This document shows positions 37,675 to 46,957 of a stretch of DNA of 64,000 nt, in pieces. Both the position numbers and the translations under genes were made by a program. Within the stretch, counting starts at the first letter, position 1, and the number at the start of each line of letters is the position of its first letter. The notes under the pieces are model-generated. The model did no database searches, was not told where the DNA came from, and saw only the letters and a program-made list of their open reading frames with translations. The DNA lies in the NCBI GenBank assembly GCA_007050995.1, contig VJOU01000007.1, positions 62,001 to 126,000 of the forward strand. The letters run 5' to 3'. Source of the stretch: Glycocaulis profundi. Its GTDB lineage: Bacteria; Pseudomonadota; Alphaproteobacteria; Caulobacterales; Maricaulaceae.

Positions 37675-38946
37675 TTAATGGCGATAGCCGTACTCGCCGT
37701 TGGCGATCTCCTCGGCATAGCGTTCGGCGAGCAGGGCCTGCCGGGAGGTGAGGTCCTGGACCTCGCCGCCGATGGCCACCGCGCGCACTCCGCTGAGCAC
37801 TTCCAGCGGATCGCCGTCCCACACCACCACGTCCCCGGCATAGCCTTCGGCCAGCGCGCCATAGGTCTCGCCCACGCCGTAGATTTCCGCCGGGGTCAGG
37901 CTGATCGCCCGGAAGGCGTCCTCCCATTCAGCCCCGTGAGCCACCGCGTTGCCCGCGTGCTGGCGCAGCAGGCGGACGTTGAAATAGAGGTCCGCGCTGA
38001 CCGTGGTGTAGGCGGTCTGCACGCCCGCCGCGTGCAGCCGGGCCGGGCCGTCAAGCCGGGCGGCCAGCACGTCGAACGAGGCAGGCAGATTGCGCAGCGG
38101 GTCGAGGATGACCGGGATGCCGGCTTCGGCCAGCTCGTCGGCCACCATCCAGGCTTCCCCGCCGCCCGAAACGATCAGGCGCAGGGCGTTGTTGGCGTCG
38201 GCGAAGGCGATGGCCCGTCGGATGTCGGCGGCGCGCTCGACCTGCATCACGATGGGGATTTCCCCGCGCGAGGCGTCGACCAGGGCCGCGGCGTCGAAAC
38301 GGTTGATGGCGTCGCCCTCGTGGTGGGACATGAAGCGCCCCGGATAGAAGCGGGCGTCCTCGAAGGCCGCGCGAAGGAAGGCCCAGGCCGCCGCCCGCGA
38401 GCCGCCCGCCGTGTTCGCGCCCGACTGGGACATGTCCACGAACAGGAATTCACGCGCCGCGAACAGGCTGTCCTCGGCCCCCGACGTGTCGGCCAGCGCG
38501 CCGCGCCCGCCGATGATGGCCGGGCCGGTGGACGGATAGACCGCGAAGCGGGTGATCCCGCCCTGCCGGGCTTCGGGGATGTGCGCCCCGTTGGGGTTGA
38601 AGGCGTCCGCCACGTCGATGGACGCGGTGAAGCTCGCCTCGTTCGCGGCGGTGTCGGACGTGTTCGCCTCCAGACCCACCTCGATCAGGCCCAGCTGGGT
38701 GTGGGGATGGAACAGGCCCGGCGTGATCCATCCGCCATCGGCGTCGATCACCTCGAACCCGGCGGGGGCTTCGAGATCAGCGCCGATCTCGGCGATCTCG
38801 CCGCCGCGGATGATCACCGTGCCGTTCTCGATGACGCCCGCCTCGGTGTTGGTCACGATGCGCCCGTTGGTGACCGCGAGGTCCTGGGCGAGGGCGGGAG
38901 CGGTCGCCGCGGCGGCCAGGGCGAAGGCTGAAATATAGGCTCGCAT
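37675..38946 (-). CDS. Amidohydrolase-like protein, probably degenerate partner
   Basis: 423 aa, signal peptide ending ALAQ. Amidohydrolase-superfamily layout: N-terminal small beta domain (LAVTNGRIVTNTEAGVIENG), ADGGWITPGLFHPHTQLG, and C-terminal LTPAEIYGVGETYGALAEGYAGDVVVWDGDPLEV. Compared with the gene before it, the mid-barrel His-containing segment is VMQVERAADIRRAI, the next ligand region is LIVSGGGEAW, and no HSDD-like Asp is seen. Most metal ligands beyond HPH therefore appear missing. Its ATG overlaps the stop of the upstream paralogue. Possibly a non-catalytic subunit; the substrate is unknown. Confidence 0.8.
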   Translation of the reverse strand: MRAYISAFALAAAATAPALAQDLAVTNGRIVTNTEAGVIENGTVIIRGGEIAEIGADLEAPAGFEVIDADGGWITPGLFHPHTQLGLIEVGLEANTSDTAANEASFTASIDVADAFNPNGAHIPEARQGGITRFAVYPSTGPAIIGGRGALADTSGAEDSLFAAREFLFVDMSQSGANTAGGSRAAAWAFLRAAFEDARFYPGRFMSHHEGDAINRFDAAALVDASRGEIPIVMQVERAADIRRAIAFADANNALRLIVSGGGEAWMVADELAEAGIPVILDPLRNLPASFDVLAARLDGPARLHAAGVQTAYTTVSADLYFNVRLLRQHAGNAVAHGAEWEDAFRAISLTPAEIYGVGETYGALAEGYAGDVVVWDGDPLEVLSGVRAVAIGGEVQDLTSRQALLAERYAEEIANGEYGYRH

Positions 38947-40439
38947 CACTGCACTCCCTGTCCGGGCTGGCCAAGTCTGAAGTCGCTGACGGGGCGGACA
39001 GCCGGGTCGGCGCGGTCGAACATCAGCGCGCCGTCGATATAGACCTGATCGGCCACCGCGTAGGTCGACAGCGGATGATCGGACCAGATCACCACGTCCG
39101 CCCGCCGGCCGGGTTCCAGAGAGCCGGTCTCGTCCTCGATGCCCAGCGCCCGGGCGGCGTTGCCGGTGAACCAGCTGACCGCCTCGCCGTCGGTGATCTC
39201 CAGACCCAGCCTGCGGCCCGCGCCCAGCGCCTTGGCGACTTCCTGGTTGAGCCGCTGGATGCCCAGCGCGTCGTCCGAGTGGATCAGCGCGCACGCGCCG
39301 TAGGAGTGCGTGATCGGCAGGTTTTCCTGAATGGAATCGTAAGCTTCCATCTTGAACCCGCCCCAGTCGGCCCACACCGCCGCGCAGGTGTCCGATTCCC
39401 GGAGCAGGTCGCCGATCTTGTAGGCCTCCACCGCGTGGTGGAAGGTGTGGACGTGGTATCCGAACTCCTCGGACATATCGAGGATCAGCGCCATTTCGTC
39501 CGCGCGGTAGCAGTGCATCTGGATCAGGATCTCCCCGTCCAGCACGCCCATCAGCGTGTCGAGCTCGAAATTGCGGGTCGGGGCGGTGGCGTCCGCGTCG
39601 CCCGCGTCCCAGTAGCGGTTCCACGAATTGCGGTACTCCACCGCGCGCTGCCACGCCTCGCGGTAACCGGCCATGTTGCCCATGCGGGTGGCGGGGCCCG
39701 AGCGTTGGCCGTAGACCCGCTTGGGATTCTCCCCGCAGGCCATTTTCAGGCCATAGGGCGCGTCGGGGAATTTCATCCCCTGCACCGTGCGCGAGGGCAC
39801 GTTGCGCAGGGTCACGCCGCGGCCGCCGAACAGATTGGCCGAGCCGGGCAGGATGTGCAGCGTGGTGATGCCGCCCGCCAGCGCATGGTCGAAGCCGGGA
39901 TCCTGCGGCCACACGCCATGCTCGGCCCAGACCTCGGCAGTCACCGGGGAGACCGCTTCGTTGACGTCGCTGTGCGCGCGGGTGCTGGGCGAGGCGCCCA
40001 CGCCCAGATGCGAGTGCACGTCGATCACGCCGGGGGTGACGTAACGGCCCGTGCCGTCGACCTCCGTCGCGCCCTCGGGCAGGGCCAGATCGGCGCCGAC
40101 CAGCGCGATCCGGCCGTCCTGCATCAGGACGTCCGCGTTCTCCATCTCGCCGCCGACGCCGTCGAACACGGTCGCGCCGCGGATCAGCACGGTGTCGGAG
40201 GGGAAGGGCGCGTAGGTGGAGGGGTAGGGGTCGGCGGCGTAGCGCACCAGCCCGTTCTCGTCCCGGTCGCGGGCATTGCCGTTGTCACGGGCCTCCGCCC
40301 GCCGCTCGGCGCGTTCCTGGGACGTCTCGCGCGCGGTGTCCTCCGCGGGCTCGGTGCTCGCGCCGTTCGTGCCGTCGCACGCGGCCAGAGCGAGCGCCGT
40401 CACGGCGGCGCCGGCCGCCATCAAGGCTTTCCTGGTCAA
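38946..40439 (-). CDS. Secreted amidohydrolase lipoprotein
   Basis: 497 aa. Lipobox LAAC near residue 21 predicts a lipoprotein. Residues 25-70 form a charged linker. The TIM-barrel hydrolase shows VTPGVIDVHSHLGVGAS (HxH metal site), a region GLKMACGENPKRVYG, IQMHCYRADEMALIL and HTFHHAVEAYKI (further ligands), and ALIHSDDALG (catalytic Asp). Imidazolonepropionase-like/peptidase-like amidohydrolases of this type are often periplasmic di- or oligopeptidases; the exact substrate is unknown. It overlaps the next gene, so both products are probably made in equal amounts. Confidence 0.85.
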   Translation of the reverse strand: MTRKALMAAGAAVTALALAACDGTNGASTEPAEDTARETSQERAERRAEARDNGNARDRDENGLVRYAADPYPSTYAPFPSDTVLIRGATVFDGVGGEMENADVLMQDGRIALVGADLALPEGATEVDGTGRYVTPGVIDVHSHLGVGASPSTRAHSDVNEAVSPVTAEVWAEHGVWPQDPGFDHALAGGITTLHILPGSANLFGGRGVTLRNVPSRTVQGMKFPDAPYGLKMACGENPKRVYGQRSGPATRMGNMAGYREAWQRAVEYRNSWNRYWDAGDADATAPTRNFELDTLMGVLDGEILIQMHCYRADEMALILDMSEEFGYHVHTFHHAVEAYKIGDLLRESDTCAAVWADWGGFKMEAYDSIQENLPITHSYGACALIHSDDALGIQRLNQEVAKALGAGRRLGLEITDGEAVSWFTGNAARALGIEDETGSLEPGRRADVVIWSDHPLSTYAVADQVYIDGALMFDRADPAVRPVSDFRLGQPGQGVQ

Positions 40440-42757: not shown

Positions 42758-43354
42758 TCAGCCGCGCCAGCGGCGGCCCGTGCGGCACTGGGCGAGCTGG
42801 CCGTCATAGCGGCGGGCGTTGGCCTCGACCTGCGTGGCGACGTTCTGCAGCCAGCCCTTGGAGTGGTGGGTGCCGCGGTTATAGCCGCCATGGCCCTCGT
42901 GATAGGCGAAATACAGATTGCGCGGATCGTTCAGCCCGATGCCGGATATCTGGCGGCTCTTGGCGGCGTACCAGCCGATGAAGTCCACCGAGTCCGCGAA
43001 ATTGGTCCGGCTGGCGCCGCGCCGTCCGGTGTCGCGCTGATACCACGACCAGGTGGTGTCCAGCGCCTGGGAATAGCCCCGGGCGGTGGAGGGGCGTCCG
43101 CGCGGAATGAACCCGAGCATCTTGCGCCGCGGCGGCCGGGCGTTCCGCACGAAGCTGGATTCCTGGCGCACGAAGGCGAGCTGGGTGCCGGGGCTGATCC
43201 CCCAGCGGGATTCGGTGCGCTGGGTCGCCCGGTGCCAGGACCGGTTCTCCTGCATGATCATGCAGGCGTCGGCGGTCTGGCTGGGCGCGCGCGTGCCGCA
43301 CGCGGCGAGCGTCAGCGAGGCCAGGGCGAGACAGGCGAGCAGGACAGGGCGCAT
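42758..43354 (-). CDS. Lytic transglycosylase SLT-domain lipoprotein
   Basis: 198 aa. The lipoprotein signal has lipobox LAAC. The SLT-like domain has the catalytic Glu in AFVRQESSFVRNARPPRR, then ARGYSQALDTTWSWYQ and YFAYHEGHGGYNRGTH. It would cut glycan strands to 1,6-anhydroMurNAc products, which AnmK recycles. Start at 43354 chosen for the signal peptide; the frame extends further upstream. A TTAACCAT element lies about 22 bp upstream. It precedes parE with 66 bp between. Confidence 0.88.
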   Translation of the reverse strand: MRPVLLACLALASLTLAACGTRAPSQTADACMIMQENRSWHRATQRTESRWGISPGTQLAFVRQESSFVRNARPPRRKMLGFIPRGRPSTARGYSQALDTTWSWYQRDTGRRGASRTNFADSVDFIGWYAAKSRQISGIGLNDPRNLYFAYHEGHGGYNRGTHHSKGWLQNVATQVEANARRYDGQLAQCRTGRRWRG

Positions 43355-43421
43355 GGCCCTATCTGTCGCTCCGACATGGTTAAAGGCGGGTGAAAGCGCT
43401 GCCCTGATCGCAGACATGAAA

Positions 43422-43554: not shown

Positions 43555-46500
43555 TTAGAACGTCATCCTCAGCACGAGCCGCGCGACGTGGCGGATGAAT
43601 TCGTCCCGCACGTCGGCGTCGTAGGCGAAGGTGAAGGTGGTGTAGTCCGAGCCCGCCGTCAGGCCCAGGCCGAGCAGCGCGCCCGAGCCGGGCAGGGTGT
43701 TGGACCTGAGCGTGAACGGATTGCCGTCCTCGCCGAACCGGGCTGTGGTTTCGGTCCCCGTGCTGCCGAAGTCGGAGCGGTAGCCCACCCGCAGGCTGGG
43801 CGACCACCAGGAGCGGTCGCTGCCGAAGCGGCGGGCGATGGTGGTGGTCACGCCGCCGGTGAACGCGGTCGAGGTGCGCGAATCCACCCAAAGGGCGAGA
43901 TCGCCGTTGTCGGAATTGTCGGCGGTCTCGTTATAGGCGCCCTCGAACAGGGTCAGGTAGGTCAGCGACGCCTCGGGGCGGACGATCCACCGGCCGAAGC
44001 CGAAATCGCGCCCCACCTGCGCGGAGGCCGAGGCGTGCCAGCCGGTCCACTCGGCGGTGTTGACCGCGGCGAAGTCGCCGATGGCGATACGGCGTTCGCT
44101 TTCATAGCGGTCCACGCCCAGTCCCAGCGAGACCGAGGCGTCGAACCCGCCCACGTCCATCGCCGCATAGGTGCCCATCTGGCCCGACAGCGCGACCATG
44201 GGCTCGTGGTTCAGGCCAACCGTGTCCACTTCGCTGGCCGAGCCCACGAAGCTCACGCCCACCGCGTAGAGCGGACCCACCGGACGGTCGATGCCCACCG
44301 CCAGGCCGAAGCCCTGACCGCGATATCCCGGTCCGAAGGCGCCGCCCGAACGGTCCGCGTAATAGCCGAATTCCTGGATCCAGATGCCCGCAAGCTCGTC
44401 CGGCGCCATGCGCGCGTTGCGCAGGCGTTCGGACAGCGCGCCGGACGCGGCGTCATTGTTGGCCATGGCGAACTGGATCGCGCTCGCGGCGTATTCGGGC
44501 AGCAGCGAATCATAGGCGCGGAAGAAGTCTTCCTGCGTGCGGATCGCCGCGATGGCCGCGCCCAGGCTTTCGAGATTGTCGAAGGCGGCGAGCGTGGCCT
44601 CGTAGGCGGCCGACCGGCCTTCGCCCAGTCCCAGCTCGTCGGCGGTCTTGCGGTTCAGCGTCAGCACGAGCGCGTTCTCGTCGCTCTCGCTGCGGCTGAT
44701 CTCGGCATTGTACAGGAAGGGCGCGTCCGAAGCCGTCAGCACCGTCTCCTCGTTCTCGATGGTCAGCGTCCCGGCGGCCAGAATGTCGAATTCCCGGCCC
44801 GCGCCGACCAGTTCGGAAAGGGAGATGAACAGATCCGAACCCTCGGCGAAGCTGATCTCGTCAGAGGCGCGGATGATCGGCCCGTCATAGGCCTGATTGT
44901 TCAGCACCAGATCCAGGATCGCCCCATCGCCCAGATCCGCGCGGGTGATCTCGGTGGTCTGGTTGCCGCCGAGACGGAGCTGGGCGTCGTCCACGGTGAT
45001 CGAGAGGCGACCGTCGCCTGAATCGATCGCGCCGGTGAAGGTCGCGTCGCGCAGCACGAACACGTCCTCGCCATCGCCGAAATAGACGTCGCCGGCCATG
45101 ATGCCCGCCTCGATGCGGAGCTCGTCATCGCCCGAACCGAACAGGATGTCGCCGCGGATGACGGGCGTGGGGGCGGTCTCGTCCTCGTCCACCTCGGCGA
45201 GGCGCTGATGAATGGACAGGCCGGACGTCATCGCCCTCGCGTCGACGGCGATGGTTTCGACCTCGCCCTCGAAATCGCTGGAGAGGCTGACCAGCGTCGT
45301 CGTGATCGAGCCGGTGTTCAGCAGGCTTTCCACCGAATCCGATTCGATGAGGATCGCCGTGGCCGCGGTTCCGCCGCCTGCGATCTGGGCGTTTATCTGC
45401 CCGGAATTGTCGATCCGCCTGACGTCGGCGCCGGACTCCACGGCGAGCGCGGTCGCGGTCGCGGTCATGTGACGGTCGTCCGCGAAGCCGTCTTCCTCGA
45501 ACCCGGCGACGCCCTGCGCTTCGATGGTGCCGGTGTTGGTGATCGAATCCGCCTGCGCGCCCGCGCCGAAGCGGACCGCGGTGGAATCAGCGTCATAGGC
45601 GGCTGAGCGGATGGTGCCGGTGTTTTCGAACCCGTCGCCCTGCAGGATGACCGCGACGATGTCGCCGCTTGCGTCCCGTCCCGCGATGAGCACCGCGTTC
45701 GCGTCCACGCCGTCGAAGATGCCCGACGCGTTGATGGTGCCGTCATTGACGACCGCGTAGCCGCGTTCCACCAGAATGGGATCGGCGTCTTCGTCCACTT
45801 CGCCTTCTTCGTCGACGGGCTGGGTCTCGTAGCTGACTTCGCCCAGAACCACGTCCGAAGTCGCGTTCTCTCCGGGACGGATCTCGAGAGCCGCCGCCGA
45901 GCCGGCCTGGACGATCTGGCCCGCGCCCTGACTGTCTCTCTGACCGGCCACGAAGACGCCGTTCACGATCGAGCCGCGGATGGCGATGGTGGCGTCGGAC
46001 AGGCGGCCGTCCTCGGGGATGCCGTTGCCGTCTTCGCCGATCTCGTTTTCCTTGAGGATCTCGAACAGAGCCGCGCTGACGCGGTCGCTGATCCTGAAGC
46101 CCCGGGCCGTGACTCCGCCGGTGATCCGCAGGCCGCCGCCGATGTCGCCTTCGGTGACGATGGCGCTGCCGCCGGGGCTTACGACGGACACGGTCGCGAT
46201 GTTCACGTCTCCCGACACGTCGTCCTCGATGGACAGGCCGCGCGAGTTTTCACCCGTCACGGAGATGTTCCCGCCCACGGAGATGTCGCCGTCCACGGGC
46301 GCGGCGATCCGCATCCCGTAGGAATCCTGACCGGTCACGTTGATGGTGCCGTTGATGGTCACGTCGCCGGTGAACGCGGACTGGCCGGACTGGGGCGCGC
46401 CTGAGCCATCCACCTCGCCGACCAGCAGGCCGGTCTTGCCCGTCTCGTCGGTGTAGGAATCGATGGGCGAATCCAGTCCGGGCGCCGCGTCGTCCGTCTC

Positions 46501-46821
46501 TTCAGGGCCCAGGCGGATGGTGCCGCCATGCGCGATGGCGCTTTCCACGCCGCCCAGGGCCTGGACGCCGACCGCGCCATCCACGCCGTCAATGGCGATC
46601 AGGGCCCCGGTGTTGGTGGTCAGTTCATTGTCGGAGTCCACGACGACGGCAGGGCCAGGATTGTTCAGCGTGACGCGGCCTGACGAAGTGATGACCACGT
46701 CGTCGCCGATCTCCGATGTCCGGACCTGGGTGGAGCGCTCGTCGTCGATCTCCTCTTCGGCCCAGGCCGGAACAGAGATGAAGGCGGCGACAGAGGCTGC
46801 GGCGAGAAGGCGGCGGCGCAT
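43555..46821 (-). CDS. Type Va autotransporter (large passenger, beta-barrel)
   Basis: 1088 aa. Signal peptide 1-22 (ending AWA). The passenger (about 25-800) is acidic, repeat-like beta-helix: stretches such as GDVTINGTINVTGQDSYGMR and GNISVTGENSRGLSIEDDV recur with Asn/Thr/Gly-rich turns. The C-terminal beta-barrel (about 825-1088, from IWIQEFGYYADRSGG) ends RMTF with the obligatory terminal Phe. It is exported through its own barrel to the surface. No protease triad, lipase motif or adhesion motif is recognised. Start at 46821 chosen for the signal peptide. Confidence 0.9.
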   Translation of the reverse strand: MRRRLLAAASVAAFISVPAWAEEEIDDERSTQVRTSEIGDDVVITSSGRVTLNNPGPAVVVDSDNELTTNTGALIAIDGVDGAVGVQALGGVESAIAHGGTIRLGPEETDDAAPGLDSPIDSYTDETGKTGLLVGEVDGSGAPQSGQSAFTGDVTINGTINVTGQDSYGMRIAAPVDGDISVGGNISVTGENSRGLSIEDDVSGDVNIATVSVVSPGGSAIVTEGDIGGGLRITGGVTARGFRISDRVSAALFEILKENEIGEDGNGIPEDGRLSDATIAIRGSIVNGVFVAGQRDSQGAGQIVQAGSAAALEIRPGENATSDVVLGEVSYETQPVDEEGEVDEDADPILVERGYAVVNDGTINASGIFDGVDANAVLIAGRDASGDIVAVILQGDGFENTGTIRSAAYDADSTAVRFGAGAQADSITNTGTIEAQGVAGFEEDGFADDRHMTATATALAVESGADVRRIDNSGQINAQIAGGGTAATAILIESDSVESLLNTGSITTTLVSLSSDFEGEVETIAVDARAMTSGLSIHQRLAEVDEDETAPTPVIRGDILFGSGDDELRIEAGIMAGDVYFGDGEDVFVLRDATFTGAIDSGDGRLSITVDDAQLRLGGNQTTEITRADLGDGAILDLVLNNQAYDGPIIRASDEISFAEGSDLFISLSELVGAGREFDILAAGTLTIENEETVLTASDAPFLYNAEISRSESDENALVLTLNRKTADELGLGEGRSAAYEATLAAFDNLESLGAAIAAIRTQEDFFRAYDSLLPEYAASAIQFAMANNDAASGALSERLRNARMAPDELAGIWIQEFGYYADRSGGAFGPGYRGQGFGLAVGIDRPVGPLYAVGVSFVGSASEVDTVGLNHEPMVALSGQMGTYAAMDVGGFDASVSLGLGVDRYESERRIAIGDFAAVNTAEWTGWHASASAQVGRDFGFGRWIVRPEASLTYLTLFEGAYNETADNSDNGDLALWVDSRTSTAFTGGVTTTIARRFGSDRSWWSPSLRVGYRSDFGSTGTETTARFGEDGNPFTLRSNTLPGSGALLGLGLTAGSDYTTFTFAYDADVRDEFIRHVARLVLRMTF

Positions 46822-46957
46822 CAGATACCCTCCGGGGTGCGGTGGTCGTCCGGCGGGGGGCCGGTCGCAGGTCAAACGCTTCTAACCGATGGTTCGCCGG
46901 GCGTCGACCGGCTGGCAAGCCCCGCGCCGCTTTGTAATGCAGTGGGGCGCGGCATGA

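Follow-up and report, generated by a model that had tools for sequence, protein, structure and literature searches.

An exported amidohydrolase gene of Glycocaulis profundi adjoins a metal-less paralogue, its probable partner subunit

Within the window analyzed here, a stretch of 64,000 nucleotides from Glycocaulis profundi, two overlapping genes (gene 1 and gene 2) appear to encode an exported amidohydrolase of two subunits, a live chain from gene 1 and a metal-less chain from gene 2 that serves as its obligate partner; we favor this reading with reasonable, though far from full, confidence. Because a live and a metal-less gene stand side by side in many bacteria, gene 2 is probably a partner subunit of the live enzyme. 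The first-pass annotation had placed two overlapping genes for exported proteins at this site, and both points hold: the coordinates, the minus strand and the one-base TGA/ATG overlap are right, and by sequence gene 1 carries a LAAC lipobox and gene 2 a signal peptide ending in ALA before Q.

38946..40439, minus strand: gene 1 (P0001), predicted exported lipoprotein amidohydrolase with intact metal ligands; 497 aa, TTG start
40377..40439, minus strand: gene 1 lipoprotein signal peptide predicted from the sequence, lipobox LAAC, Cys21
38944..38948, minus strand: gene 1 stop and gene 2 start, TGATG, with one base in common, read from the sequence
37675..38946, minus strand: gene 2 (P0002), predicted exported metal-less amidohydrolase-fold protein; 423 aa, ATG start
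38887..38946, minus strand: gene 2 signal peptide predicted from the sequence, likely cut between ALA and Q; A20-Q21 invariant in 22 aligned rows

Gene 1 matches PF01979 (44.7 bits) and PF07969 (51.7 bits) over their Pfam cut-offs, and its best solved relative is Thermotoga maritima 3ooq (E 3e-61), matches that make it a 3ooq-like member of the amidohydrolase superfamily. Gene 2 likewise exceeds the cut-off for PF01979 (36.5 bits) and has the same best solved relative (E 3e-30). Its AlphaFold model, built on an 80-row alignment, has a mean pLDDT of 92.6 and a pTM of 0.90 and superposes on 3ooq with a Z of 47.5 over 368 residues at 2.5 A (VIA-align), the next folds being prolidases and carboxypeptidases at Z 25-26. 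Together, the matches and the model point to common descent and a shared barrel fold with 3ooq-like amidohydrolases. Two narrower assignments were rejected on NCBIfam equivalog scores: HutI (imidazolonepropionase; cut-off 298), for which the two proteins score 52.7 and 42.0 bits, and Xaa-Pro dipeptidase NF051886 (cut-off 500), for which they score 46.9 and 44.8 bits.

Conservation was read from a sample of 139 loci, some of them fetched twice, which after removal of copies gave 127 gene-1 and 129 gene-2 sequences. Aligned to 3ooq, gene 1 has the full metal set of HxH, K, H, H and D, bearing out the earlier statement that it keeps HSH, a downstream His and the Asp of HSDD (H142, H144, H309, H335 and D389).

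40008..40016, minus strand: gene 1 HSH with predicted ligands H142 and H144 (alignment to 3ooq)
39744..39746, minus strand: gene 1 K232, the beta-4 lysine; K wherever a row has a residue (124 of 124), gaps in the other 3
39513..39515, minus strand: gene 1 H309, predicted ligand on beta-5; H in 127 of 127
39435..39437, minus strand: gene 1 H335, predicted ligand on beta-6; H in 127 of 127
39273..39275, minus strand: gene 1 D389, predicted ligand on beta-8, within HSDD; D in 127 of 127

The HxH motif reads H/H in every one of the 120 uncut relatives, all of which show the complete ligand pattern HHHHD (120/120), and the remaining 7 of the 127 rows, cut before HxH, read HHD. K232 occupies the place of the bridging lysine of binuclear members. 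A lipobox-like motif occurs in 76 of 92 uncut gene-1 relatives, most of which thus look like lipoproteins, so that a complex would be membrane-anchored via gene 1.

At the matching positions gene 2 lacks these ligands, and by alignment it does not qualify as a metalloenzyme. QVE and SGGG had been proposed to replace ligands, and Q235 and G261 do align to lost His residues. The proposed equivalence of HPH (residues 80-82) to HSH, by contrast, is a coincidence lying two residues off register, alignment to 3ooq giving H82-T83-Q84 as the true HxH position.

38695..38703, minus strand: gene 2 H82-T83-Q84, the true HxH position (alignment to 3ooq)
38440..38442, minus strand: gene 2 F169, replacing the beta-4 lysine (alignment)
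38242..38244, minus strand: gene 2 Q235 of QVE, replacing the beta-5 His (alignment to 3ooq)
38164..38166, minus strand: gene 2 G261 of SGGG, replacing the beta-6 His; G in 125 of 129 relatives
37990..38001, minus strand: gene 2 V316-D319, region of the missing beta-8 Asp, where the alignment is ambiguous

The residue aligned to D389 of gene 1 is V316, or D319 if a gap is placed; D occupies position 319 in 57 of the 116 rows with a residue there and some D or E falls between positions 313 and 322 in 113 of 129, which leaves the old Asp position uncertain. The four His are far more clearly gone: none is kept in 91 of the 129 gene-2 relatives, one in 37 and two in 1. Since loss of the metal site is common to all 129, it is not a matter of chance. 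Positions 82 and 235 are hypervariable, with at least 12 residue types each, position 82 holding F, Y, M, I, H, L, V, A and others, with H in only 10 of the 128 relatives with a residue there. A single relative, from Oligoflexia (L145, 4974-6266), has both His of HxH, its other His ligands being gone; it may possibly be an evolutionary intermediate or a reversal.

The first-pass annotation held that its reading would fall if the second protein proved to have another metal site, still intact. We looked for a conserved His or Cys column across the 129 gene-2 rows, and none exceeded 73, so there is no alternative His-based site. Gene 2 might even so still be an enzyme, working by another mechanism or another metal site, and E89, D98, D218, D241, E264 and D379, each conserved in 120 to 128 of the 129 relatives, could be cited in its favor. 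However, D stands at the D98 position in 20 of 21 gene-1 rows, and an acidic residue at position 241 likewise in 20 of 21, so these two are likely structural; with no His or Cys column to set beside them, we give the idea of a still-active gene 2 little credence.

Evidence for partnership comes from the distribution of the two genes. Gene 1 lies directly upstream of gene 2 in 137 of 139 loci, the two exceptions (L101 and L117) being places where the contig ends, and the spacing ranged from -4 to +13 bases in all of the first 30 loci. Among 61 genomes, G. profundi and its relatives, gene 2 was found at E 1e-44 or better in 58; two others (G025 and G043) gave weak gene-2 matches and one (G060) none. 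In a survey of 299 Pseudomonadota genomes, with limits of E 1e-20 for gene-2-like and E 1e-60 for gene-1-like matches, the identical 36 genomes held both, at distinct adjacent places, and in none did either gene occur by itself. At these limits, then, co-occurrence is obligate. The named loci belong to Alpha- and Gammaproteobacteria, with one in Oligoflexia, and the pair was present in 1 of 5 Bdellovibrionota genomes. Long open frames running across both genes in three loci (L058, L065, L119) are frames of G+C-rich DNA and were rejected as fusions.

Adjacency and co-transcription would also be expected of proteins that serve a common pathway and never meet. The two products could each have a substrate of its own and be linked by nothing more than their operon, as unrelated steps often are, and a short overlap by itself is no proof of contact. 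Yet gene 2, having no metal site, has no evident reaction of its own to contribute to such a pathway, and the 0/299 count of solitary genes at the limits used is hard to square with so loose a tie; on these grounds a merely shared operon strikes us as quite improbable.

Contact between a metal-less and an intact chain is suggested by natural fusions. Gene 1 makes up the C-terminal portion of a chain some 1000 residues long in 5 of the 36 genomes (G183, G210, G266, G295, G342), and a wider search brought this fused type to 60 rows at 59 distinct loci. In all 60 rows, the N domain has the same fold without the ligands, the C domain reads HHHHD, and the fused chain is followed by a further metal-less protein, separate and some 430 residues long. 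The model of one fused chain (L160) has a pLDDT of 85.0 and a pTM of 0.82 over 1034 residues, which indirectly suggests that its domains are firmly placed relative to each other. These fusions bear on another alternative, in which gene 2 is a periplasmic, non-catalytic binding protein that captures the same ligand and hands it over without forming a stable complex. A kept fold, export, a common operon and the lost metal site would all suit such a protein; nevertheless, its old active-site positions 82 and 235 vary far more than a conserved ligand pocket should, and the fused metal-less and intact domains point to contact, leaving a binding protein unlikely in our judgment.

In the third proteins of the fused type (e.g. 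L160, 4544-5839) the beta-5 His is retained throughout (60 of 60 rows), an observation that could be cited for a gene 2 that is still an enzyme. A His also stands at the beta-4 lysine position in all 12 rows placed in the tree. Because of these two His residues, the third protein may be able to bind a ligand that gene 2 cannot. Another type of live/metal-less pair occurs in two alphaproteobacteria (G188 and G048; L165, 1584-4201, and L167, 1394-3957), the second protein of which is also without ligands. Matches were found in 20 plasmid records, of which 5 were read; one plasmid, from Hymenobacter (Bacteroidota; L235, 2290-6490), apparently has the fused-type layout in broken frames, annotated as hypothetical proteins and amidohydrolases. 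Nonomuraea, Acetoanaerobium and Cytobacillus have single intact genes with no evident signal peptide and no second amidohydrolase beside them in the stretches read, and the existence of such partnerless relatives means that the fold in itself can do without a partner, a point against the two-subunit reading.

An outgroup-free tree of 83 rows has one branch, with support 100/97, that separates all 36 intact rows from all 47 metal-less ones (those of gene 2, of the third proteins and of the fused N domains, and those labeled pB). With three remote outgroup rows added, support for the intact clade is lower (90/91), and long branches meet. A clade uniting gene 1 and gene 2 is rejected (p-AU 0.00075), and on that ground we rejected the idea that gene 2 is a recent copy of gene 1. 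The nearest relative of gene 2 is the separate third protein and not the fused N domain, with weak support (84/47), which weighs against the two-subunit reading. One ancient loss of the metal site is the simplest reading of this tree, to be held with caution because the fast-evolving metal-less rows may attract each other.

Gene 2 is under purifying selection: across 8 pairs, its dN/dS was 0.04-0.19, against 0.017-0.149 for gene 1. Gene 2 does evolve faster, with a mean column identity of 58% against 63% for gene 1, as a decaying duplicate might. Decay is nonetheless contradicted by these dN/dS values, on which we rejected it, by the presence of gene 2 in nearly all of the 61 genomes, by the ancient loss of the metal site and by the rejected clade of gene 1 with gene 2; that gene 2 is simply decaying is therefore very improbable indeed. 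With catalytic residues lost, fold apparently kept and purifying selection in force, gene 2 would fit the definition of a pseudoenzyme, and the first-pass view of it as a pseudo-enzyme on a retained fold is strongly supported by ligand loss throughout its relatives, the lack of a conserved alternative His or Cys, the fold model and dN/dS.

To return to the two-subunit enzyme, the heteromer proposed in the first-pass annotation has good indirect support from the invariant adjacency, the identical sets of genomes and the natural fusions. We infer that the two chains form a complex, that activity depends on gene 2, that the substrate is a peptide and that the ancestor was homomeric. Gene 1 would provide catalysis and the membrane anchor, as a (beta/alpha)8 barrel that has a metal site of the binuclear type and hydrolyzes an amide, a peptide being the likeliest. 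Its partner from gene 2 would be a soluble paralogue that lost its metal site long ago and survives as the obligate partner, packing on the catalytic subunit in place of the second copy in an ancestrally homomeric assembly, and either stabilizing the gene-1 subunit or shaping its substrate site, with the gene overlap holding the dose near one to one. A candidate for the partner interface is a conserved C-terminal helix, RQxxLxxRY, modeled by AlphaFold as helix 402-411.

37717..37743, minus strand: gene 2 R402-Y410, conserved C-terminal RQxxLxxRY helix (alignment); R402, L406, R409 and Y410 in 21 of 21

Neighboring genes offer some guidance on the substrate. In 5 of 80 loci (grouped by BLAST, one checked with Pfam) the pair is preceded on the same strand by a peptide transporter of the POT family, which adjoins gene 1 in four (L105, L112, L122, L129) and is separated from the pair by another amidohydrolase gene in the fifth (L143); in Qipengyuania citrea, too, such a transporter stands next to the pair. 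Another upstream neighbor, in 6 of 80 loci, is an M14 carboxypeptidase, on the same strand in 5 of them (one checked with Pfam). These neighbors occur in a minority of loci; given them and the prolidase-like next folds, a peptide is our best guess at the substrate. No constant third gene emerged: parE (21/80) and a DEAD-box helicase (28/80), both named from their sequences by eye, recur and look like local synteny, as do most neighbors of the pair. Elsewhere in the window, also on the minus strand and named by eye, are a 1106-aa frame with a signal peptide and an autotransporter-barrel-like C-terminal end (43555-46875) and a small lytic-transglycosylase-like lipoprotein near the parE-like gene (42758-43417).

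More broadly, and as an evenly balanced call, the pair may belong to an ancient group of Gram-negative exported hydrolases in which an intact chain is accompanied by one or two metal-less sister chains in at least three architectures (the separate pair, the fused pair with a third chain, and the second pair type of L165 and L167). The chains would have been inherited together since a single early loss of the metal site, the live chain relying on its dead sister for folding, anchoring or substrate choice and the Gram-positive singles being homomeric. Genomes that each keep a live and a metal-less paralogue, together with natural fusions and partnerless relatives, make a good test bed for the origin of an obligate live/dead heteromer. 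Were the substrate a peptide, the enzyme could be a scavenging peptidase. Annotation calls both proteins amidohydrolases, so databases count the metal-less proteins as enzymes, and the catalytic subunit might seem inactive if produced without its partner.

Among known systems, the closest solved relative of both genes, 3ooq, shares the fold and has the ligands of gene 1, which gene 2 lacks; its entry comprises 10 chains of one sequence, a single kind of chain, under a title that assigns no function. The next folds, cog1228 prolidases and carboxypeptidases (3n2c, 3feq, 3mtw Cc2672) and the ochratoxin amidase ADH3 (8ihq), hydrolyze amides or peptides according to their entry titles; their similarity, at Z 23-26, is far below that of 3ooq, and their listings show no inactive partner. 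Like gene 1, the metalloBSH of Bilophila is a secreted metal-dependent amidohydrolase; it differs in being of the Amidohydro_3 type with an extra C-terminal domain, and the sections of the source consulted mention no inactive partner (PMC13081902). There is precedent for an inactive amidohydrolase chain that supports another enzyme, and what is apparently new is the live/metal-less paralogue pair: no description of a live amidohydrolase with its own metal-less paralogue across lineages was found in the open-access papers searched. In the ATCase of Pseudomonas aeruginosa, the active partner of a pseudo-dihydroorotase is reportedly an unrelated transcarbamoylase. The pseudo-dihydroorotase, an inactive member of the amidohydrolase superfamily, is needed for its partner's activity, as described in the sections of that source consulted (PMC7053772). 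Compared with that system, the partner here is a live paralogue, and both proteins are exported.
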